A model generated the notes under the pieces. It made no database searches. It saw only the letters and a program-made list of their open reading frames with translations, and was not told the DNA's origin. From the NCBI GenBank assembly GCA_020809705.1, contig CP085828.1, positions 4,712,001 through 4,776,000 on the forward strand: a DNA stretch of 64,000 nucleotides. The letters run 5' to 3'. Positions 53,754-63,940 of this stretch are shown here, in pieces. Position 1 is the first letter of the stretch. The number at the start of each line of letters is the position of its first letter. The DNA is from Calonectria ilicicola. Lineage: Eukaryota > Ascomycota > Sordariomycetes > Hypocreales > Nectriaceae. A program made the translations under genes and the position numbers.

Positions 53754-54410
53754 TTAGTCTCCTGTTTGTCGTGTCCGTTCTTGTTCAGCCTCCGCAAACC
53801 TTTTTCCAAAGGCCCCCGCTTCGTATGGTGGTGGTGGCGCTTCGTCATCTGCAGCGGGTAAGATGCTGTCAGGATCTGCATCATGCTGCCGAGGTGATTC
53901 TGGGGGCGATTCTGTATTCCTATCTGACGGAACTGATGAAACTGATGTATTTTGGTTCATTCTCCTGGCTGTGTTACGTCCATTCAGACAGTAGCACATC
54001 AAGATTCCCAAGAATGTCACGCCGAAGAGGGATCCAAAAATTACAGCTGCAGTGGTACCGCTATTAAGTCCCTTATTCCCCGTTTCATCATCGTCGTCGT
54101 CATCGCCGACGTATCCTGTCTTTCTGGCGGAAGTCGTGACAGTGAAATCCAGTTTGGTCTCTCCTCTTACAGCACTACAATATACTTGCAGCAGTTCAGT
54201 TACAGACTGGAGCCCCTCAGAGGTGATGCAAGGGTAGCCTGTTACTATATCGCTTCTCACATATGTATAAATCTTGTTCTTGAGGCACACGCACGATGCC
54301 ATAGCTTCGGGGCCATTGTCTGGGCAGAGTTCAGAAGTCATTGTCATGCCATTTTGAAGAGCAGCCCTGAGGCACCTTTCTAAGGACCTGAACCCAGGCA
54401 TCTCCTCAAT
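53754..54410 (-). pseudogene. 3' half of transposon-split Cys-rich membrane protein
   Basis: Encodes the second Cys-rich domain (GFRSLERCLRAALQ, MTSELCPDNGPEAMASCVC, VYC), a Ser/Thr/Asp linker, one TM helix (TTAAVIFGSLFGVTFLGILMCY) and a cytosolic tail with APPPPYEAGAF. There is no signal peptide in front; an ATG at 54401 gives a 215-aa frame that alone would lack secretion targeting. The 5' half lies 9 kb away at 63420-63940 in the same orientation. If the intervening insertion and one AT duplication are removed, the reading frame passes directly from MTYY to IEEMPGF, producing a ~374-aa protein with two homologous domains. From memory it resembles fungal single-pass membrane proteins with tandem LASCVC-type extracellular domains; function unknown. 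Confidence 0.8.
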
Positions 54411-54412
54411 AT
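54411..54412 (+). repeat. Left target duplication (AT) of piggyBac-like element
   Basis: AT flanks the left inverted repeat and is repeated at 63420-63421. Collapsing the two copies restores the host reading frame exactly, which fixes the duplication at 2 bp. Confidence 0.6.
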
Positions 54413-54437
54413 CCCTTTAACTGCGTTAGCCCTCCAC
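54413..54437 (+). repeat. Left terminal inverted repeat (25 bp)
   Basis: Starts CCCTTTAACTGCGTTAGC and is perfectly complementary to 63395-63419; the 26th base differs (C versus T). Confidence 0.92.
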
Positions 54438-54551
54438 CTCCGTACCCCGCCCCACATGACCCCAGCAAAAGCAAAGTGACCTCGAGTGACATCAATGACT
54501 TCCAGAATCAATGCAACTCATTTTACTATGTAATTCATTATTTTATTCACA

Positions 54552-55410
54552 ATGGATACCCAACAGCCCTCTAATGAGGCCATCAATGTGTATGACGATG
54601 ACAACTTTATCTCAACTGATAACTACCGCCGCAAGCAGCCTAAGAATAACACCTACCAGCCAACGAAGGCGCCGACCACTAACCGCGGCTATAGCTTTAA
54701 GCCAATTGAGCTACCAGCCCAGGCTACAATAATTGAAGAGCTACCCCAAGACCCACTATTATTATTCCAAGAATTCCTGCCTATTTCCTTAGTTGAAAGA
54801 TGGGTTTAATATACTAATAGCTAGGCTAGTTACTTGCTTAATCAAGCTAAAAGCTGCAGTTAATAGCGCCTGCGGTCATGGCTGTTGAATTGGAAACTGA
54901 CCTCTATTATAGAAATCTACATGTGGATTGCTATTATGATTTATATACGAATAATTAAGGAACCAAGGATTGAAGATTATTAAAAGACTTTATAGCTAAA
55001 GGCTTAATATGCTGTTCATTCAATTATTAAGTGGATATCTTATGACCAATTTTAGCTTTTATTATGATACCTACGAATATTTGATTATATAATTATTTAA
55101 GTAGCCACAATAGACCGGCCTTATAGCCGGACCTTTAGCTAGGTTAATGAATGATTTAATATAATATAATAAGTGTTTACTTAATTCTATAAGCTAGGCA
55201 TGAATATTGCTATAGATAAAGCTATGGTCTGCTATCTTGGAAGATCTACTAAGATAATAACTATCAAAAATAAACCTATTCTAACTAGCTTTAAAGTGTA
55301 AATTGTAGTCTAAGGAGGCTATTTTCTTAGGTGGATTTAGTACCAGCCAGGTCCGAGGTTTAGGTCAGTTGGAATAGCTTGGGCTAAAGTCACCAAAATT
55401 AGGCCTGCTT
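54552..55410 (+). pseudogene. piggyBac-like transposase, 5' half (decayed)
   Basis: First 85 codons are open (start MDTQQPSNEA; LLLFQEFLPISLVERWV matches the beginning of the fungal PGBD transposase domain). Further on the conceptual frame, with stops, still shows IIKEPRIEDY followed by a stop where Trp is expected, and IAIDKAMVCYLGRST with the first catalytic-type Asp, KNKPI and FLRWI. The reading frame continues on the far side of the retroelement at 62327. Inactive. Confidence 0.8.
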
Positions 55411-55415
55411 ATTGG
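55411..55415 (+). repeat. Left target-site duplication ATTGG
   Basis: ATTGG immediately precedes the left LTR and recurs at 62322-62326 after the right LTR. It lies within the transposase frame (PAYW codons). Confidence 0.95.
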
Positions 55416-55810
55416 TGTAACGGTCTGGTCAATTCCCAACTTGATGAACCAATCAGAACGAAGGGTTTATTGTTGGCAGGATGGTTAGGCGCGTTATGGT
55501 AAATAGAGCAATGGAAGTGTTACGTTAGGTAATAGTCAATCGCAATTGAGGTAACCAAGTTGTATTGAAAGCTGGCTAGTATCGGCCATAAGGGCGGATT
55601 CTAACCTGTCTATATACTATTATCGTAGTAGGCGCTCACTGTGTTGGTTCTATCTAAGTATTGGTGATCGGATGGGTGATCACAGGGTGATCACCAACAT
55701 TATGGGTGATCGCGAGTGAGCGCTTCCTTATTGGTTGGTGTGGGGCTATAGGGTAGGTAGGTGTTAGTTCTGCCGTCGTAGACCGCCTAGGCGTGTCATG
55801 GGTCATAACA
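55416..55810 (-). repeat. 3' LTR (left copy)
   Basis: 395 bp, TG...CA ends, matching 61927-62321 at every position compared by eye. Contains a CCAAT box near its + start, TATATA-like sequence at ~55612, and four GGTGATC copies (55663-55711). It lies just upstream of the antisense + strand gene and could provide its promoter. Confidence 0.95.
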
Positions 55811-55815
55811 CGATG

Positions 55816-55825
55816 TCCCCCCTCT
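55816..55825 (-). other. Polypurine-tract-like sequence
   Basis: On the minus strand AGAGGGGGGA precedes the 3' LTR, separated from it by CATCG. It is the expected place of the plus-strand priming site of the retroelement. Confidence 0.55.
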
Positions 55826-55906
55826 GTTGGTCTTGTCCTCAAGGCCCGTTAGTTCGACCTTGTGTGTGAGTTTCCCCATTTTTAACCTTCAAAATATTTT
55901 CTAATT

Positions 55907-56527
55907 ATGCCTCGTGGTCCAGGTGATTCCAAACAGCGTCTTCGTGCCAAGGCCCGAGCTCAGCTTATTAACTCAACGGGTTTTGAAATCATGCCGTGTT
56001 CATTCTGTTCCTCTAAGGGTTTGCGATGCAAGATGTTGCCGGATTCTGGTGACCGTTGCGGCGAGTGCACTCGTCGTGGTAGGACCTGTGATGCTTCAGA
56101 GGCGTCTTTGGCTGCGTGTGCGTCATTTTATGGTGGTGAATGTGGTTGGTTGCTGACTTTGGTAGTAAACCGGATAAATCGGGAGTCCGATCGTTTGGAT
56201 ATAGAGGAAGAGGTCGCTGAGGAGGAGTTCCTTCGTGTACAAGCGGAGGCGCTTGCGGCTCAGGCCAAGGTTCAGGAATCCTTGAACCGTTTATCCCGTC
56301 TTCGTCGTCAGAAACGTCAACTCAAGACGAAGGGTGTGGAGATGGTGCGTCGTGGGCTTTCTTCTTTGGATGAGTTGGAAGAGGCGGATCGGGTAGAGTC
56401 GGAAGCCGTTGTTCAGGCGCAGTCTTTAGGGGCAGTGGATGTTATCGATTGGAACGCTGTTGACCTCGATGGTTTGCTTGGCGTTGTGTCCTCAGGAACG
56501 CTTCCAGCAGCTTCGAGCAGTGCGTGA
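55907..56527 (+). CDS. Antisense Zn2Cys6-type protein encoded inside the retrotransposon
   Basis: 206 aa, opposite to the element's sense strand, between pol and the 3' LTR; its last 86 bp overlap the 3' end of pol antisense. Residues 26-55 hold a complete binuclear-cluster pattern C-x2-C-x6-C-x9-C-x2-C-x6-C (CSFC, RC, RCGEC, TC), as in fungal Gal4-type DNA-binding domains, preceded by basic residues (SKQRLRAKARAQ). It is followed by a long charged heptad-like region (EEEVAEEEFLRVQAEALAA, LSRLRRQKRQL) likely to form a coiled coil, and an acidic/hydrophobic end (VDVIDWNAVDLDGLLG). It could bind DNA as a dimer. The left LTR ends 96 bp upstream of its ATG and may drive it. From memory similar short Cys6 proteins are common in fungal genomes. 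Function unknown. Confidence 0.8.
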   Translation: MPRGPGDSKQRLRAKARAQLINSTGFEIMPCSFCSSKGLRCKMLPDSGDRCGECTRRGRTCDASEASLAACASFYGGECGWLLTLVVNRINRESDRLDIEEEVAEEEFLRVQAEALAAQAKVQESLNRLSRLRRQKRQLKTKGVEMVRRGLSSLDELEEADRVESEAVVQAQSLGAVDVIDWNAVDLDGLLGVVSSGTLPAASSSA

Positions 56528-59500
56528 GATGTTTCGCGGGTTCCCATGTTGTTTCTTTATAGCCTTTCCATTTAATTTCAAATTTCCCGTCTTCTTCTCT
56601 CCTTTGTAGGATTTTTTCGACTTCCCACTGATCTTCTGGGTTTTCTATTTGTGGTTTGTAGCTGGGTCCTGTATTGACTTGGATGCCGTCACCGGGTTCT
56701 AGCAGTGAAATGTGGAAGATAGGGTGCACTTTAATGTTGTCTGGGAGGTCGAGTTCATAGTTGTTTTCTGATATTTTTCTTTTAATGGGGTATGGTCCAA
56801 TCTGCGTGAAGTCGATTTTTTTGTTTTGTCTTTTTGTTGCAAGATTTTTTGTTGCTAGGTAGACCATGTCTCCCTCCGAAAAGGTTGGTCCCTTCAGCCT
56901 TTTGAGGTTGTAATGTCTCTTCATGATGTTACGGACGAACTCAAGTTCTGTCTTCATTTCTTCATGTAATTTTCTTAGATCATCTGACTTGATCATAGCT
57001 TTTGCTTGGATTGTGCCTTCTAAGGGGGCTCGGTAAGCATCTGGTGTGAAGCCAAAATTGGCTTTTGCTGGTGTTGTCTTAATGCTGTGATTGTAGGATG
57101 TGTTATGTGCTAGCTGTGCGATAGGTAACTTTTCTACCCAGTCGGTTTGTTCGTAGTTAATGTAGCATCGTAGATATTGCTCAATTTCCTGGTTTTGGCG
57201 TTCGGTTTGTCCGTCTGTTTGGGGGTGGAAAGCTGTGCTTAGCTTGTGGTTTAACCCCATTAAGGACATCAGGCTTTGCCAAAACTTAGATGCAAATGGT
57301 TGTCCTCTATCCGATATGATTTCGGTTGGTAGGCCGTGTATAGCGACTATATGTCGAAAGAAAAGGTAGGCGAATTGTTCTTCTTTTGTTGCTTTATTAT
57401 ATGGGAGATAATATGCTGCTTTCGTGAAGCGATCAACAATAACGAAAATACTATCATAGTATACTCCTGTAGCAGGGTCTGCTGACAAGGGGAGGTTGGT
57501 AATAAAGTCCATTGTGATTGAGTCCCATGGTCGTTGTGCGACAGGGGATGGTTGCAATAATCCGTATGGTTTGTGTCTTGGTTTTTTGGAGTGTCGACAT
57601 AGGCTGCATTCCTTACATACTTGTTCAACTTTCTTTTTCATCTTACTAAAGGAAAATGTCTGTTTGACTCGTTCAAGGGTTTTGTTGATGCCTTTGTGGC
57701 CATGCAAGGGGTGTTCGTGAATGTCCCTTATTAACTCCATTTGGTGTTCTTCTGGCACTTGTAGGTAGTCCGTTTTTTCTTCTTCTGGAAGTGCTAGATT
57801 GTATTCTTCGATTTTCCTTAGTAGTGGATTGCCCTGTTCCACTCGTTGTGTGGGTATTTCCGCAGTAGTGGTTCTGGTTGCACGCGGCAATCCTCCTATT
57901 CTCATAGCGGCGATTATTTTCTTTGTTTCTATTGTCATTCCACTGATTGGGGCTTGTTCTAGTCCTCCGTTGGTGTTGTAGATCAATAGTTTTTCTTGTG
58001 TTTTTGGTTTTTCTGTGTTGTAGTCAGGTCGGCGGCTGATCGCATCGGCGCGGCCATTCTCAGTTCCTTTAACATGAACGATTTGATAGTCGAATTCGGA
58101 TAGGTATTCTGCATATCGTAGTTGCCTTCCACTGAGTTTTTGAGTGGTTGCGAAGTAGGCAATGTTTTTATGGTCGGTGTATACTGTGATTTTGTGGTTG
58201 CTTCCTAAAAGGTATTGTCGGAATTCTTTGAAAGCGTTGACAATAGCAAGGAATTCTTTATCGTAGATGGGGTAGTTTAGCTCAGGGCCATGTAGCTTAT
58301 GCGAGTAGAATGCTATAGGATGTAGGTTTCCTTGTTCATCTCGTTGTCCGATCTGGGCCCCTAGGGCGAAGTCCGATGCATCGGTTTCTAGCTCTATAGG
58401 CTTATCAGGGTCGAACATTGCAAGGATGGGTTCTTCTAAAATAGCATTTTTTATGGCTTCGAATGATTGTTGTGCTTTATTTCCCCATCGAAAGGTAATT
58501 CCTTTCTTAGTTAGTTCTGTCATGCCTGAGGCGATTTTACTAAATCCCTTAATGAATCTTCGGTAATAGTTAGCAAATCCGAGGAAGGCTTGTACTTCCT
58601 TCACATTAGTAGGTTCCTTCCAATCTTTTACTGCAGCAACTTTCTTTGGGTCCATGCGAATTTCGTTAGGGCTGATAATGTGTCCTAGAAATTCTACTTC
58701 TTGAGTGTGGAACTTGCTTTTTTCTGGTTCAACCAGGAGTTTGGCGTCTTGGAGGGCTTTTAAGACCTTATGAACGTGTTCTTCATGTTCTTCCTCGTTT
58801 TTGGAGAAGATGAGGATATCGTCCAGGTAGCAGACAACAAAGATATCTAAGTGTTCTCGTAATACATTGGTTATCATTCGCTGAAATGATGCCGGTGCAT
58901 TTGTGAGTCCAAAAGGCATAACTAGGTATTCAAACAGTCCAAACTTAGTTCGGAAAGCGGTTTTCCATTCATGTCCTTCTTTAATGCGAATAAGATTGTA
59001 TGCTCCTTTAAGATCCAGTGCAGTAAAGATGTTGGCTCCATGAAGGCGATCCTTCATTTCATTAATCAATGGTAGTGGAGTGCGATCTTTAATGGTGATA
59101 TCGTTGAGCTGTCGGTAGTCCACGACGAGGCGTAGCTTCCCGTTTTTCTTAGGCACAAACATGACAGGGTAACCAGCTTCGGAGTTTGAAATACGGATAT
59201 ATCCCTTTTTGAGCATATCTTGGATGTATTCCTTCAGGGTATCAAGCTCGATTTGGTTGAGATTATAAATAGGGTAAAATCGGGTGTTGGATCCGTCTTT
59301 AAGGACGATTTCGTGATCCCACTGGCTAAACTCAGGTAGTCCAGTGTCTAGTTCTTCTGCGAAGAGCTTTTCATAGATTCGGTACTGTGGGGGTACATTG
59401 TGCAGTCTGTCTGTTTCTGCTTCAGCCTTCATTTCTTTGAGGCTTTTATCGATTTGTTGGAACTGTGTTCTAAGGCAGGCGATCGTTCGTTGTCTTTGCC

Positions 59501-59948
59501 TTTTCTGACCGTTCTTGTGTTTATGTTTTGTTCCTTTGGGTGGCGAAGATTCTCCTTCGCTCATGTCTCCTGCTTGGTCAGGGCTAGGAGTTCGAGATCT
59601 CTCATCGTGTTTTATGGAAATATCGCTGGCTGCATCATACTCCTCGGGTATTTGCACCTGGCCAGTACGCCAGCAGATATTAGGGTTGTATCGGTATAAC
59701 CATGGGTACCCTAAAACTAGGTCGTGTTGTCCGATATCAACAATATCGAAGGTTATTCCTTGGTTCTTTCCTTCAACGAAGACTTTCAGGTGATCAATCT
59801 TTTTGTCTATAATACCGTTGTTATATCCAAAGGGTGTTCCTTCTATATTGATGATTTCGTACGGGTCGACTTTCGTTGTCCATGGTAGCTGAAGTTCGTT
59901 AACTACTCGAGGATTCACGTAGTTTCGCTCAGCTCCGCTATCCACCAT
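56442..59948 (-). CDS. pol: Retrotransposon Pol polyprotein (PR-RT-RH-IN-chromodomain)
   Basis: 1168 residues from the internal ATG 59948; the frame is open without stops up to the frame-shift site at 60110, adding 54 codons. Order: aspartic protease (MVDSGAERNY), reverse transcriptase with VDYRQLND, LVMPFGLTNAPASFQ and catalytic CYLDDILIFS, RNase H (ELETDASDFALG, VYTDHKNIAYF), integrase zinc domain (HPLHGHKG ... CKECSLC), DDE core (TMDFITNLP, EIISDRGQPF, TERQNQEIEQYL) and a C-terminal chromodomain (WEVEKILQRREEDGKFEIKW, KETTWEPAKHL). All catalytic residues are present. Expressed presumably as a Gag-Pol fusion in cytoplasmic particles. Confidence 0.96.
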   Translation of the reverse strand: MVDSGAERNYVNPRVVNELQLPWTTKVDPYEIINIEGTPFGYNNGIIDKKIDHLKVFVEGKNQGITFDIVDIGQHDLVLGYPWLYRYNPNICWRTGQVQIPEEYDAASDISIKHDERSRTPSPDQAGDMSEGESSPPKGTKHKHKNGQKRQRQRTIACLRTQFQQIDKSLKEMKAEAETDRLHNVPPQYRIYEKLFAEELDTGLPEFSQWDHEIVLKDGSNTRFYPIYNLNQIELDTLKEYIQDMLKKGYIRISNSEAGYPVMFVPKKNGKLRLVVDYRQLNDITIKDRTPLPLINEMKDRLHGANIFTALDLKGAYNLIRIKEGHEWKTAFRTKFGLFEYLVMPFGLTNAPASFQRMITNVLREHLDIFVVCYLDDILIFSKNEEEHEEHVHKVLKALQDAKLLVEPEKSKFHTQEVEFLGHIISPNEIRMDPKKVAAVKDWKEPTNVKEVQAFLGFANYYRRFIKGFSKIASGMTELTKKGITFRWGNKAQQSFEAIKNAILEEPILAMFDPDKPIELETDASDFALGAQIGQRDEQGNLHPIAFYSHKLHGPELNYPIYDKEFLAIVNAFKEFRQYLLGSNHKITVYTDHKNIAYFATTQKLSGRQLRYAEYLSEFDYQIVHVKGTENGRADAISRRPDYNTEKPKTQEKLLIYNTNGGLEQAPISGMTIETKKIIAAMRIGGLPRATRTTTAEIPTQRVEQGNPLLRKIEEYNLALPEEEKTDYLQVPEEHQMELIRDIHEHPLHGHKGINKTLERVKQTFSFSKMKKKVEQVCKECSLCRHSKKPRHKPYGLLQPSPVAQRPWDSITMDFITNLPLSADPATGVYYDSIFVIVDRFTKAAYYLPYNKATKEEQFAYLFFRHIVAIHGLPTEIISDRGQPFASKFWQSLMSLMGLNHKLSTAFHPQTDGQTERQNQEIEQYLRCYINYEQTDWVEKLPIAQLAHNTSYNHSIKTTPAKANFGFTPDAYRAPLEGTIQAKAMIKSDDLRKLHEEMKTELEFVRNIMKRHYNLKRLKGPTFSEGDMVYLATKNLATKRQNKKIDFTQIGPYPIKRKISENNYELDLPDNIKVHPIFHISLLEPGDGIQVNTGPSYKPQIENPEDQWEVEKILQRREEDGKFEIKWKGYKETTWEPAKHLTHCSKLLEAFLRTQRQANHRGQQRSNR

Positions 59949-60091
59949 AGCGTTACACCACTTCCCTTTAATCCTTACTTCTATTTCTAATCGTCGTCGG
60001 GGTTGCTCTTTAGTTGTAGAGTATAGAGCTTTTTTAGGGAGTTCTTTCGGTAACTCCGGGGGTCGTTGCCCTAGCCGCTCCTGCTGCTCTT

Positions 60092-61873
60092 CTACAGGGG
60101 GCTCCGCTCGTTTTTTGGTTTTGTTCGGTGCCAGGCCATTGCTTTATCTATCATGTGGATATCGCATTTGGGGTCTTGACATTCATTCCAGGGCAGCTCG
60201 CTGCAATCGGGGAACTCAGGCTCACCTGGTTCCAACATAGTGAACTGGTAGTGGGGGTTTCTTCCCGTTACTTCGTGTCGGTCGAAGTGTCTCCCATAGG
60301 CGCGGTGGATGACCACGTCTTCTACCCTAATGGGAAAGCATGCTGCATGCTGCTTTTGTTCCATGTGTTGGAGGCAGTCGTGGTCGTAGCAGCTTACCCA
60401 TGAGATGTTCTTATGTTCTTCGTGTACCGTGTTTAGTCTAGGGTCATCCTCCTTATGTTGGATAGGTCGGGGGTCGCGGTTTCCTGGTTGCCATTCGCTT
60501 CGCGCAAGTAGGAAGACTTTGTCTCCGTCCCACGAGGGTTCCCTGACTTGTTGGGCCATTCTTTTAATACTAGTTGTCCATTTCCTGTTTCCATTTTCGT
60601 CATAAGTGCAGGTATCCCACCATGCTGGTGCTTTGTCGGTATACACATCTAGGATGGATGCAGGGATTCCTATCTTCTTGGCTCGTTCCAACCATTCGTG
60701 GGGAAGGCAGGACTGGCCTTCTTGTCGGGTTGACCATGCTTTTCGGATGGCTTCATCGATTTCTTGTTGCGGAGTGAGTTTTACCTTGCGCAACTCATGG
60801 TTTTCCGTACATTGCTTAACTATGGTGGTTGGTTCATGTTTCTTAATGACAGCAAGAACAACTTTTCCTGTGGTATCCTCTTTTCCTTCTGGTACCGGGG
60901 TCCATTGAGTTTTCATAGTGTTGAGTTGTTTCTGTCCTTCTGGTATGGGTTTGAACTGATTTCCTGTTTTCGGGGAGCGGCATTCGAAGGATTTATGTCC
61001 TTTTTTCCCGCAGTTGAAGCAGGTAATCTTACTTTTGTCATACCCCTGGGTGGCGCCGAGTTCCATTGGCCCTGAATGAGTCCCGTGTGCGGTGCTTTGT
61101 TGCTTATTCTGGGTTTTTCCTTTATTCGGGATATATGGGTTTTTGTTATCTCGGGCGCGTTCCTTGCGTCGGTTAAATTGTCTTTCGTCGATCTTGACAG
61201 CACTTTTGATATACTCCGAGAGTTTTTCTGGCCGGTCTTCTTTATAGATTTCGTCCTTGACTTCGCCCTTCAGGCCTCTATAGTAGAGTTCCATTAGTGC
61301 GTCGTCATCCCAGGCTGTTCGTGCTGCAATCCTTTTGAACTCGGCCGAATACTGGCTGCAGGATTTTGTTTGTTTAAGTTCGTATAACTGGTTTACAGCT
61401 TGTTGTTCCATATCGATCGTGCCGAAATTGTCTTTAATAGCGGTTTCGAAATGTTCCCAGTCTCTGAAGATCTCTCGGGTCTCTTCATTTTGGTCGGCGT
61501 CGTCCTCGTTTTCCAGATAGTCTCTCATGATGGGTTCAAACCATACTCCTGCGTCTCCTTGGAGGAGGGTTTTGGTGTATAGTACCTGGGCTTCGGGGGT
61601 TGCAAGTCGCGTTGGGAAAAAGCGGAAGTATCCCTTCATTCGGGTGAGGAAGGGGACTACATCGGCAGCCTTTCCTAGGAAGGGCTCTGGGACCGGGGGT
61701 CTCAGAATTTCACCAATGTCTTTACCCTTGTTTCCTTCAACCGTGGTGGTTCCGGCTTTTTCTGCTTTAAGTTGTGCTTGTGCATCTGCGAGTTTCTTCT
61801 TAACCTGCTGCAGTTCCGTAGTCAACTCGGCGTTGCTAGGAGGAGCAGTGGCGGCGGGGTTCTTTCCGGACAT
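60092..61873 (-). CDS. gag: Retrotransposon Gag polyprotein
   Basis: 593 aa. Begins with a coiled-coil stretch (LTTELQQVKKKLADAQAQLK), then the retrotransposon Gag fold (PEPFLGKAADVVPFLTRMKG, WEHFETAIKDNFG, QYSAEFKRIAARTAWDDDAL) and a CCHC zinc knuckle (CFNCGKKGHKSFEC) near residue 290. It is followed by an unusually long C-terminal part of ~290 residues (Trp/His/Cys-containing, e.g. CYDHDCLQHMEQ) before the stop, whose last codons hold the frame-shift site. Gag assembles the virus-like particle and binds RNA. Confidence 0.94.
   Translation of the reverse strand: MSGKNPAATAPPSNAELTTELQQVKKKLADAQAQLKAEKAGTTTVEGNKGKDIGEILRPPVPEPFLGKAADVVPFLTRMKGYFRFFPTRLATPEAQVLYTKTLLQGDAGVWFEPIMRDYLENEDDADQNEETREIFRDWEHFETAIKDNFGTIDMEQQAVNQLYELKQTKSCSQYSAEFKRIAARTAWDDDALMELYYRGLKGEVKDEIYKEDRPEKLSEYIKSAVKIDERQFNRRKERARDNKNPYIPNKGKTQNKQQSTAHGTHSGPMELGATQGYDKSKITCFNCGKKGHKSFECRSPKTGNQFKPIPEGQKQLNTMKTQWTPVPEGKEDTTGKVVLAVIKKHEPTTIVKQCTENHELRKVKLTPQQEIDEAIRKAWSTRQEGQSCLPHEWLERAKKIGIPASILDVYTDKAPAWWDTCTYDENGNRKWTTSIKRMAQQVREPSWDGDKVFLLARSEWQPGNRDPRPIQHKEDDPRLNTVHEEHKNISWVSCYDHDCLQHMEQKQHAACFPIRVEDVVIHRAYGRHFDRHEVTGRNPHYQFTMLEPGEPEFPDCSELPWNECQDPKCDIHMIDKAMAWHRTKPKNERSPL
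60110..60116 (-). promoter_or_regulatory. Probable -1 ribosomal frameshift site (AAAAAAC)
   Basis: Heptamer A AAA AAC in the gag frame, seven codons before the gag stop. Slipping back one base continues in CGA GCG GAG ..., which is open through 54 codons into the protease ATG (59948) and the Pol frame. It is a canonical X XXY YYZ slippery heptamer. No downstream pseudoknot was evaluated. Confidence 0.8.
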
Positions 61874-61926
61874 TGTTATTGCTCAATTGTTGACGCGGGT
61901 AACCAACTGAACAAGAGCTTTCAACG

Positions 61927-62321
61927 TGTAACGGTCTGGTCAATTCCCAACTTGATGAACCAATCAGAACGAAGGGTTTATTGTTGGCAGGATGGTTAGG
62001 CGCGTTATGGTAAATAGAGCAATGGAAGTGTTACGTTAGGTAATAGTCAATCGCAATTGAGGTAACCAAGTTGTATTGAAAGCTGGCTAGTATCGGCCAT
62101 AAGGGCGGATTCTAACCTGTCTATATACTATTATCGTAGTAGGCGCTCACTGTGTTGGTTCTATCTAAGTATTGGTGATCGGATGGGTGATCACAGGGTG
62201 ATCACCAACATTATGGGTGATCGCGAGTGAGCGCTTCCTTATTGGTTGGTGTGGGGCTATAGGGTAGGTAGGTGTTAGTTCTGCCGTCGTAGACCGCCTA
62301 GGCGTGTCATGGGTCATAACA
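61927..62321 (-). repeat. 5' LTR (right copy)
   Basis: 395 bp, no difference from 55416-55810 seen by eye. Drives transcription of gag-pol leftwards. Confidence 0.95.
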
Positions 62322-62326
62322 ATTGG
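62322..62326 (+). repeat. Right target-site duplication ATTGG
   Basis: Copy of 55411-55415; defines the insertion point of the retrotransposon inside the piggyBac-like transposase. Confidence 0.95.
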
Positions 62327-63345
62327 CACTGGTTATTATAGCTCCGGCGGTAATGGTAAAAGAGACTAAAGAGTGGCATTTATCTGAACCTGATATAAGC
62401 TATGGTTATTTCCCTAGTAAATCTATTACTAAAATCTATATATTATGTCTTTTTGGATAATCTATTTTCCTTCTATAATCTCTTTTGCTAGCTCCATTAA
62501 TGTGGGCATGGGGCCATAGGTATAGCCTGCTGTAACTGCGGTATTTATATTGATCTAGCCAAGCTGAAAGCTACAGACAACACCGCCGCCGGCAGCTTTT
62601 AATTTAATGAGATTAGGGCTATTCCGATCTTTAATAATAAGGTTAATTAAATAATGTGGAAAGATAATGTCCTTATGTTAATATTATTAATTATATTTAA
62701 AGGTAATGAAAAGATTAACTATTAGTAAAAAAAGCCGATAATAGTAAAACTATCAGCATAGCTAATATAGCATTTTTTTGGTACTAAGCCTATCAAGCTA
62801 ATTTCTATTCTAGCTATAACTAATAGCTATAATAATAAAATAAATGCTATTAATTAAGGTAACTAAATGCAGTCATATTAGAGCCTTAGCTGCCGTATTT
62901 GGAGAGGCGGTTGGAAGATCCTTGCTTAGGACTTCCTTTTAGAAATAGATCTTAATAACCCTTTTATTATATAAAAACTAGAGCAGCCTAATTAAAAGAT
63001 ATTTATACAGCCAGTAGATTAATACTAATACATTTAAAATAGCCTTATTTAAAAATACAATCCAGAAGTTTAAACTAAGAAGCAGATTCAGACTAAAGAC
63101 AAATTTACACCTATTTCACAGCATATTCTTATCCAAAAAGGAAAATCTAAGTGCTTAGCTTATCAAGGATATTATCTAGATCAGCCAAGGCCTTATAAAA
63201 AAAGGAGGCTATTATTAACAATCAGTGAAAACAGCCAGGCGCCGCAATCACAATACCGCTGTCAAGAGTGTAAGGTAGCATTATATAGATCCGACCGTTG
63301 CTGGGACTTCTGGCATCACCCAATTTAGCAGGCAATTGATGTACC
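62327..63345 (+). pseudogene. piggyBac-like transposase, 3' half (decayed)
   Basis: Continues the frame broken by the retroelement. Conceptual pieces between stops: CGIYIDLAKLKATDNTAAGS, FNEIRAIPIFNNKVN, IMWKDNVLML, and a C-terminal Cys-rich end at 63258-63318 (CQECKVALYR, RCWDFWHH), as in PGBD proteins. Dense in TAA/TAG and A+T, consistent with RIP. Inactive. Confidence 0.75.
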
Positions 63346-63394
63346 TTCAATTTAGAGCACTTTGATTGGCAATACACCCCTGCCCGTGACCCAA

Positions 63395-63419
63395 GTGGAG
63401 GGCTAACGCAGTTAAAGGG
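63395..63419 (-). repeat. Right terminal inverted repeat (25 bp)
   Basis: Perfect inverted copy of 54413-54437, followed by the AT duplication at 63420-63421. Confidence 0.92.
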
Positions 63420-63940
63420 ATAGTAAGTCATGTCGCTTGGAAGATTTGTTTGAGTCGGCATTGATGTGACCCCCCAATTCAGAAGACAGTATGCTGTGAA
63501 TACGTCCCGCACAGACTCGACATCAGCTGAATTGGAAGAACAAAGTTCTGTAACTTCCTCCTCGAGGCGATGATTTATGATGCTTGAGATGTTCACTTCG
63601 TTGTCACATAAACAACTGGCAAGCCCACTTCGATCTCTGGGACATATATTGGTCTGATAATAATAGAGTTAAATATACATTGGAGACTCTCGAGGACTAT
63701 ACTTACAAAGGATTGTATCTCAAAATCTAATGCACTTTGAGCACAAGGTGCCAGTTCTTTAAAGGAATCCAAATGGTAGAAGTAGGTAGACACTTGGTAT
63801 GTTAGACGAGGGGACAAAAGAGTCGTCGAAGCAGCAGAAAATATAGTGACAGGAGTATCAGGTACAGCCTGTCCAAGAGTTGGCAGCAACAGAATCGCTA
63901 ACCATGTTCTAGTAAACATTCTCCGCCGTCTTGTAGCCAT
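63420..63940 (-). pseudogene. 5' half of transposon-split Cys-rich membrane protein
   Basis: Exons 63940-63707 and 63653-63420; intron 53 nt (GTAAGT...TATCAG), phase 0. Encodes a signal peptide (MFTRTWLAILLLPTLGQA), then the first Cys-rich domain: YFYHLDSFKELAPCAQSALD, ICPRDRSGLASCLC, EVTELCSSN, VFTAYC, ending MTYY at the insertion point. The element's inverted repeat follows directly, so translation would read PFNCV... into transposon DNA. Domain 1 is homologous in Cys spacing to domain 2 at 53754-54410 (ASCVC, YC). The alternative ATG at 63919 would also give a signal peptide. Confidence 0.82.

Follow-up and report, generated by a model that had tools for sequence, protein, structure and literature searches.

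Transposons of the piggyBac superfamily usually duplicate a TTAA target site on insertion. Cryo-EM of the piggyBac transposase describes a dimer whose active sites are placed such that a 4-bp offset is obligatory, with TTAA recognised in unpaired form (PMC7351741). In Paramecium, the piggyBac-derived enzyme PiggyMac acts at a 2-bp core (TA) rather than at TTAA, excising internal eliminated sequences with 4-base overhangs centred on TA (PMC3464196). The nearest mobile element is Ti_tr1 of Tuber indicum, which encodes a PF13843 transposase and is reported with no TTAA, a TA duplication and an unclear classification (PMC3864998). Here, we describe a locus in Calonectria ilicicola in which a host gene is split by a piggyBac-like element that is itself split by a Ty3/gypsy element. 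The locus lies in a stretch of 64,000 nucleotides (the window; C4:4712001-4776000), on which an earlier note had been made from the sequence alone; the genome comprises 69.93 Mb across 12 contigs.

Like Ti_tr1, the outer element combines a fungal PF13843 transposase and terminal inverted repeats (TIRs) with a 2-bp duplication and no TTAA. Unlike Ti_tr1, which is described with TA, 52-bp TIRs and no class, the elements studied here comprise three families (F1, F2 and F3) whose 19 copies single out AT, and the same difference, AT and not TTAA in all 19, sets them apart from T. ni piggyBac (6x67/6x68) and piggyBat (9c0f). As with PiggyMac, the enzyme would be piggyBac-derived and tied to a 2-bp core; F1, by contrast, is a mobile element duplicating AT. 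Nested insertion and repeat-induced point mutation (RIP) are ordinary in fungi, and the layering of the locus is ordinary too; what is new is a piggyBac lineage that duplicates AT. Our search of the literature, with Repbase and subscription journals outside its scope, found no AT duplication in a piggyBac element.

We are highly confident of a four-step history for this locus. A gene of a fungal Cys-rich membrane-protein family, intact as alignment to relatives shows, was ended by an F1 copy inserting at TATA between Tyr and Ile codons and duplicating the central AT only, presumably through a 2-bp stagger made by a DDD transposase. C-to-T changes then accumulated in both strands of the F1 copies and disrupted most of their transposase genes, whereas the outermost 50–100 bp were spared. 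Last, a recently bursting chromodomain Ty3/gypsy element entered the already mutated F1, its integrase chromodomain probably reading histone H3 methylated at lysine 9 (H3K9) on RIP-mutated, AT-rich DNA. For the wider proposal we lean only narrowly in favour of all its parts holding together: a fungal lineage with the piggyBac fold may have left the TTAA rule, targeting TATA, duplicating AT via a 2-bp stagger and losing the omega-loop residues that hold TTAA; RIP would kill its genes and spare its ends, so that copies hit by it may still be mobilised in trans and serve as AT-rich landing pads, pulling chromodomain retrotransposons into DNA rich in genes.

The split host gene

The host gene is read from the minus strand, with its ATG at 63940, an intron, the junction at 63420/54410 and a stop codon at 53754–53756. 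Between its halves is a segment of 9007 bp (54413–63419) bounded by perfect 25-bp inverted repeats, a match expected 0.00 times (100 shuffles), and within this segment lies a long terminal repeat (LTR) element of 6906 bp flanked by ATTGG duplications. The earlier note had described this architecture, and its coordinates are borne out to the base. The predicted product has a hydrophobic N-terminus, two mutually similar Cys-rich domains, a transmembrane segment and a PPPPYE tail. The homology of the two domains, also proposed in the note, held up in a shuffle test, where the score was reached in 1 of 1000 shuffles.

When the second half was compared with a protein database, none of 404 candidates reached E ≤ 0.001. 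The same half matched two open-frame paralogues in the genome, L025 (35%) and L026 (28%), and the L025 frame used as query returned 18 database relatives, the named ones from Fusarium, Pyricularia, Daldinia, Xylaria and similar. Each half of the window gene was aligned separately to these 20 family proteins. In 18 (both paralogues and 16 of the 18 relatives), the match to the first half stops at residue X and that to the second begins at X+1, and the junction falls inside a conserved PGDM(S/T)Y stretch; in the other two (P0139, P0140), the insertion site is not spanned. These alignments show that the gene is truly split and that it belongs to a fungal family of Cys-rich membrane proteins. They also sustain the claim that removing the insertions restores one continuous frame, the halves abutting without a gap; homologues existing as separate halves, which would have spoken against that claim, were looked for, and 18 of the 20 relatives run through the junction. 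By eye, an extra N-terminal Cys-rich stretch is present in the paralogues and several relatives and absent from the window gene.

None of the host gene pieces reached a Pfam cut-off. A CFEM identity was considered and rejected: UniRef attaches that name to P0125, P0135 and P0136 as a label, and no match to the Pfam CFEM domain was found in the window pieces, the L025 frame, P0123 or P0125.

The outer element and its target duplication

Family F1 has 12 TIR pairs genome-wide. The two remnants in the window add up to 1003 + 1093 = 2096 bp. Six of the eight un-nested F1 copies have this same length and the other two measure 2094 bp, and alignment of either remnant to an intact copy needs 0 gap columns. 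Intact copies are found at C12:831548-833643 and C12:1273198-1275293, both on C12, which at 1.36 Mb is the smallest contig; PF13843 (DDE_Tnp_1_7) is matched in the two with E values of 4.5e-44 and 1.4e-44. The DDD triad comprises D222, D332 and D464, where aspartate is present in 35, 36 and 37 of 37 aligned rows, respectively. TIRs of all three families start with CCCT, which fits the superfamily criterion of a TIR beginning CC[C/T]T (PMC2872659). Structure prediction followed by a fold search gave the piggyBac fold for the F1 transposase; Foldseek and VIA rows ranking lower than piggyBac and Tn5 were treated as background from the RNase H fold. The note's view of this frame as piggyBac-like is hence upheld at three levels: profile, sequence and predicted fold.

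AT flanks both sides of all 19 copies with both ends in view (12 F1, 6 F2, 1 F3). TTAA flanks none of them, and no repeated 4-bp flank is seen in any. AT is likewise present at the F2 loci where a single end could be seen (L041, L049, L050/L054, L056) and at 21 of 21 exact F2 ends, found with a search pattern whose first base excluded G. The base outside the AT is T on the left in 17 of 19 copies and A on the right in 16, which makes TATA the preferred target.

Reading frames at interrupted genes also point to AT. In the window gene, retaining exactly one AT gives the spacing of the family (18 of 20 relatives). On C7, an F1 copy (L013) splits a kinase-like frame that is open for at least 298 codons on each side in the one-AT phase; a paralogue of this gene (L100) is continuous. 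Alignment of the pieces to it breaks off at 490 and picks up again at 503, and the split gene has 15 residues at the site versus 12 in the paralogue. We examined the phase at all 19 copies, with shuffled flanks for comparison. Frame pairs with at least 80 codons per side were seen at two copies (window and C7), both in the one-AT phase, compared to an average of 0.095 for shuffled flanks; at a threshold of 50 codons, eight pairs were observed, compared to 1.85. Taken together, flanks and reading frames support AT as the target duplication of the outer element.

Some observations weigh against this assignment. In six frame pairs whose shorter side spans 51–65 codons, the phase calls for none or two ATs, and one AT suits none of these. 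At the C10 site, a left frame of 299 codons stops after 1 codon with one AT and runs for 59 with none, although this frame may finish at that point or contain an intron. In addition, the ends of PF13843 loci L052 and L058 were not found. The C10 frame would be accommodated if AT were part of the element (ends ATCCC..GGGAT) and insertion occurred without any target duplication, and an invariant AT in 19 of 19 copies is what one expects of an element end. Yet zero ATs would shift the frame at both the window gene, where one AT reproduces the spacing of the relatives, and the C7 gene with its long open frames, and we regard this alternative as quite improbable. A duplication of TA, with element ends TCCC..GGGA, has a precedent in Ti_tr1 (PMC3864998) and is compatible with 14 of the 19 copies; since it fails in the other five (L011/12, L013, L014, L015/18, L019), where AT fits, it is hardly credible. 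A TTAA inside the F1 repeat (CCCTTTAACTG) was tried as the target as well. It was rejected because F2 reads CCCTTTGAG and F3 reads CCCTTCGAC at that place and because a cut there would, by eye, not yield the host frame. AT is thus the duplication we adopt and, with TTAA absent from the flanks, what we claim is a variant lineage sharing the piggyBac fold rather than a canonical piggyBac element.

In piggyBac, the omega-loop residues are R275, Y283 and K290 (PMC7351741). At these positions F1, in contrast to T. ni piggyBac, has L, T and P, within an ungapped stretch of the profile alignment. Among 36 other fungal rows, R is present at 275 in none, Y at 283 in two and K at 290 in one. The coincidence of these residues with AT duplication is a correlation. 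If true, a 2-bp AT duplication made by the same fold would amount to a natural experiment separating fold from target choice, a question for which this genome offers two intact F1 transposase genes.

Several other copies deserve mention. C12 also holds four well-preserved F1 or F2 copies, and this contig may be an accessory chromosome. Four F2 copies (L044, L045, L046, L048) of ∼1.15 kb, >99% identical and with open frames of 266–291 aa, look like internally deleted derivatives of the 2.1-kb F2 element. A lone F1-like end of 51 bp with 2 repeat mismatches is found on C3 (L023, 3944–3994), and no partner was seen within the 7 kb fetched. The F1 copy on C10 (L015-L018; C10:3078245-3106972) is swollen to 28.7 kb and contains old mutated pieces of the window gypsy family (∼73% identical), another LTR element and one pristine gypsy, which has TTTAA on both sides and lies amid the remains of older retrotransposons rather than in F1 sequence itself. 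The C7 and C5 copies of F1 also contain an unrelated LTR element of ∼5.4 kb (LTRs ∼205 bp; L013, 2380–7756), which on C10 forms part of the nested stack (see also loci L011/L012 and L015/L016).

Decay of the outer element and entry of the Ty3/gypsy element

Mutations were counted against the intact F1 copy L021. Over 2096 bp, the window copy carries 265 C>T/G>A changes and 2 transversions, with no change of the T>C/A>G type; another copy, L019, carries 381 and 1, again with none of the reverse type. In the window copy, the sites hit are 141 of 301 for CpA, 70 of 182 for CpG, 30 of 268 for CpC and 24 of 264 for CpT. Across eight F1 copies (excluding L021 as the reference, L014 and L020 with a 2-bp indel, and the C10 copy), the first 50 bp contain only 2 differences and the last 96 bp none, compared to ∼0.10 per site per copy in the interior. 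This sparing of the outermost ends accounts for inverted repeats that remain perfect despite heavy internal mutation.

From this signature we infer that the decay process was probably RIP, which depends on a RID-type methyltransferase and a sexual phase. In the genome, PF00145 is matched at two loci and the MAT alpha-box at one, all as domain matches in frames without stops, and hence a loss of RIP or of sex is not evident. Long-term deamination of methylcytosine would also turn C to T, and CpG is hit nearly as often as CpA; the most-hit context is nonetheless CpA, and so one-sided a spectrum, in both the window copy and L019, is not expected of time-driven decay. We consider deamination very unlikely, and RIP remains the reading we follow.

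The inner element has open gag and pol frames. Its LTRs (TGTAACGG..CATAACA, 395 bp) are of the TG..CA type and are flanked by ATTGG. Domains follow the order PF00078, PF17917, PF17921 and a C-terminal chromodomain, PF00385; the match to the integrase core PF00665 stays below the Pfam cut-off (26 vs 32.6 bits). Domain order, LTR ends and short target duplication all fit a chromodomain-clade Ty3/gypsy element, and like MAGGY-type elements it combines gag, reverse transcriptase, RNase H, integrase and a C-terminal chromodomain with AT-rich sites.

The family appears to have expanded recently. Of 517 candidate LTR matches, 40 were scored, all 100% identical, and an exact pol 30-mer occurs 26 times in the genome. 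An antisense frame within the element has 25 perfect copies, and the other 125 scored matches contain stops in all but six, indicating old mutated copies plus a young burst. The Cys pattern of this frame bears a weak likeness to the fungal Zn2Cys6 cluster (E = 0.4), and some diverged copies are open over the matched part, for example three identical ones at 47%; these features hint that the frame may be a conserved gene. Among 17 other gypsy copies fetched, nine have matching 5-bp flanks. The eight that lack them indicate that some gypsy sites have been rearranged. Five full-length copies near contig ends (L063, L065, L083, L087, L091) have the common flanks TTGGG/GTTAT, and a subtelomeric block carrying the gypsy element seems to have been copied between chromosomes.

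The gypsy target duplication records the order of events. In all eight un-nested F1 copies the target site reads ACCGG, whereas both duplicates in the window read ATTGG. Because the two C>T changes are common to both duplicates, mutation preceded gypsy insertion, and the order of invasion, decay and re-invasion given in the earlier note is upheld. That note did not extend to the RIP signature of the decay, the AT duplication or the preference of the gypsy family for AT-rich DNA. Mutations inside a target duplication provide a relative clock that orders two events without an outgroup, a logic applicable to other nested pairs in RIP-active fungi.

To describe site preference, we considered 19 gypsy sites (17 fetched, the window and L017), 16 of which are distinct by their flanks, two of these perhaps representing one duplicated region. 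Flanks below 0.40 in G+C content (GC) were found at 15 of the 16 distinct sites, compared to 2 of 26 grid points (Fisher, 2e-8). Mean flank GC is 0.246 for gypsy, 0.461 for F1 and 0.479 for the grid. F1 thus lies in ordinary DNA and is made AT-rich by mutation, which would explain why gypsy, preferring AT, goes there. RIP-mutated DNA generally carries the methylated H3K9 mark. Methylated H3K9 is bound by the chromodomain of MAGGY, which can steer integration into heterochromatin (PMC2832683), and chromodomain targeting of RIP-made heterochromatin may likewise explain the gypsy site in the window. Alternatively, gypsy could insert without targeting, AT-rich copies being merely the survivors after insertions in genes were lost. 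Members of the host-gene family are conserved, so hits in genes can be costly, and one gypsy site is in DNA of 0.58 GC. Against this stand the presence of a chromodomain, the wide gap in GC between gypsy flanks and grid, and the apparent youth of the burst (perfect antisense copies, exact pol 30-mers), which would have left little time for such loss. Survivorship is an unlikely explanation, though one to be kept in mind; targeting by the chromodomain is the one we prefer.

Feature coordinates

Table 1. Features of the nested locus, numbered from the first nucleotide of the window
Feature	Coordinates	Strand	Remarks
Host second half: second Cys-rich domain, transmembrane segment, PPPPYE tail, stop	53754..54410	-	
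AT target duplication, copy with host second half	54411..54412	.	
AT target duplication, other copy	63420..63421		Within host exon 2
piggyBac element F1, including inner gypsy	54413..63419	+	2096 bp without gypsy and one ATTGG
F1 TIR, left	54413..54437	+	
F1 TIR, right	63395..63419	-	
Decayed transposase gene, piece 1	54552..55415	+	Frame aligned to intact L021
Decayed transposase gene, piece 2	62327..63328	+	End point by arithmetic from intact copy
ATTGG gypsy target duplication, copy 1	55411..55415	.	
ATTGG gypsy target duplication, copy 2	62322..62326	.	
Ty3/gypsy element with chromodomain	55416..62321	-	6906 bp
LTR	55416..55810	-	395 bp
LTR	61927..62321	-	395 bp, identical to the LTR at 55416..55810
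Antisense frame inside gypsy	55907..56527	+	206 aa, tail to tail with pol
pol frame (protease-like, reverse transcriptase, RNase H, integrase, chromodomain)	56442..60143	-	Stop to stop; frame differs from gag
gag frame (Retrotrans_gag, CCHC knuckle)	60092..61873	-	
Host exon 2 up to insertion	63420..63653	-	
Host intron	63654..63706	-	53 bp, GTAAGT..TATCAG
Host exon 1: hydrophobic N-terminus, start of first Cys-rich domain	63707..63940	-	

Elsewhere in the window, positions 2306–2497 hold a direct tandem repeat of 96 bp in two copies that are 91% identical.

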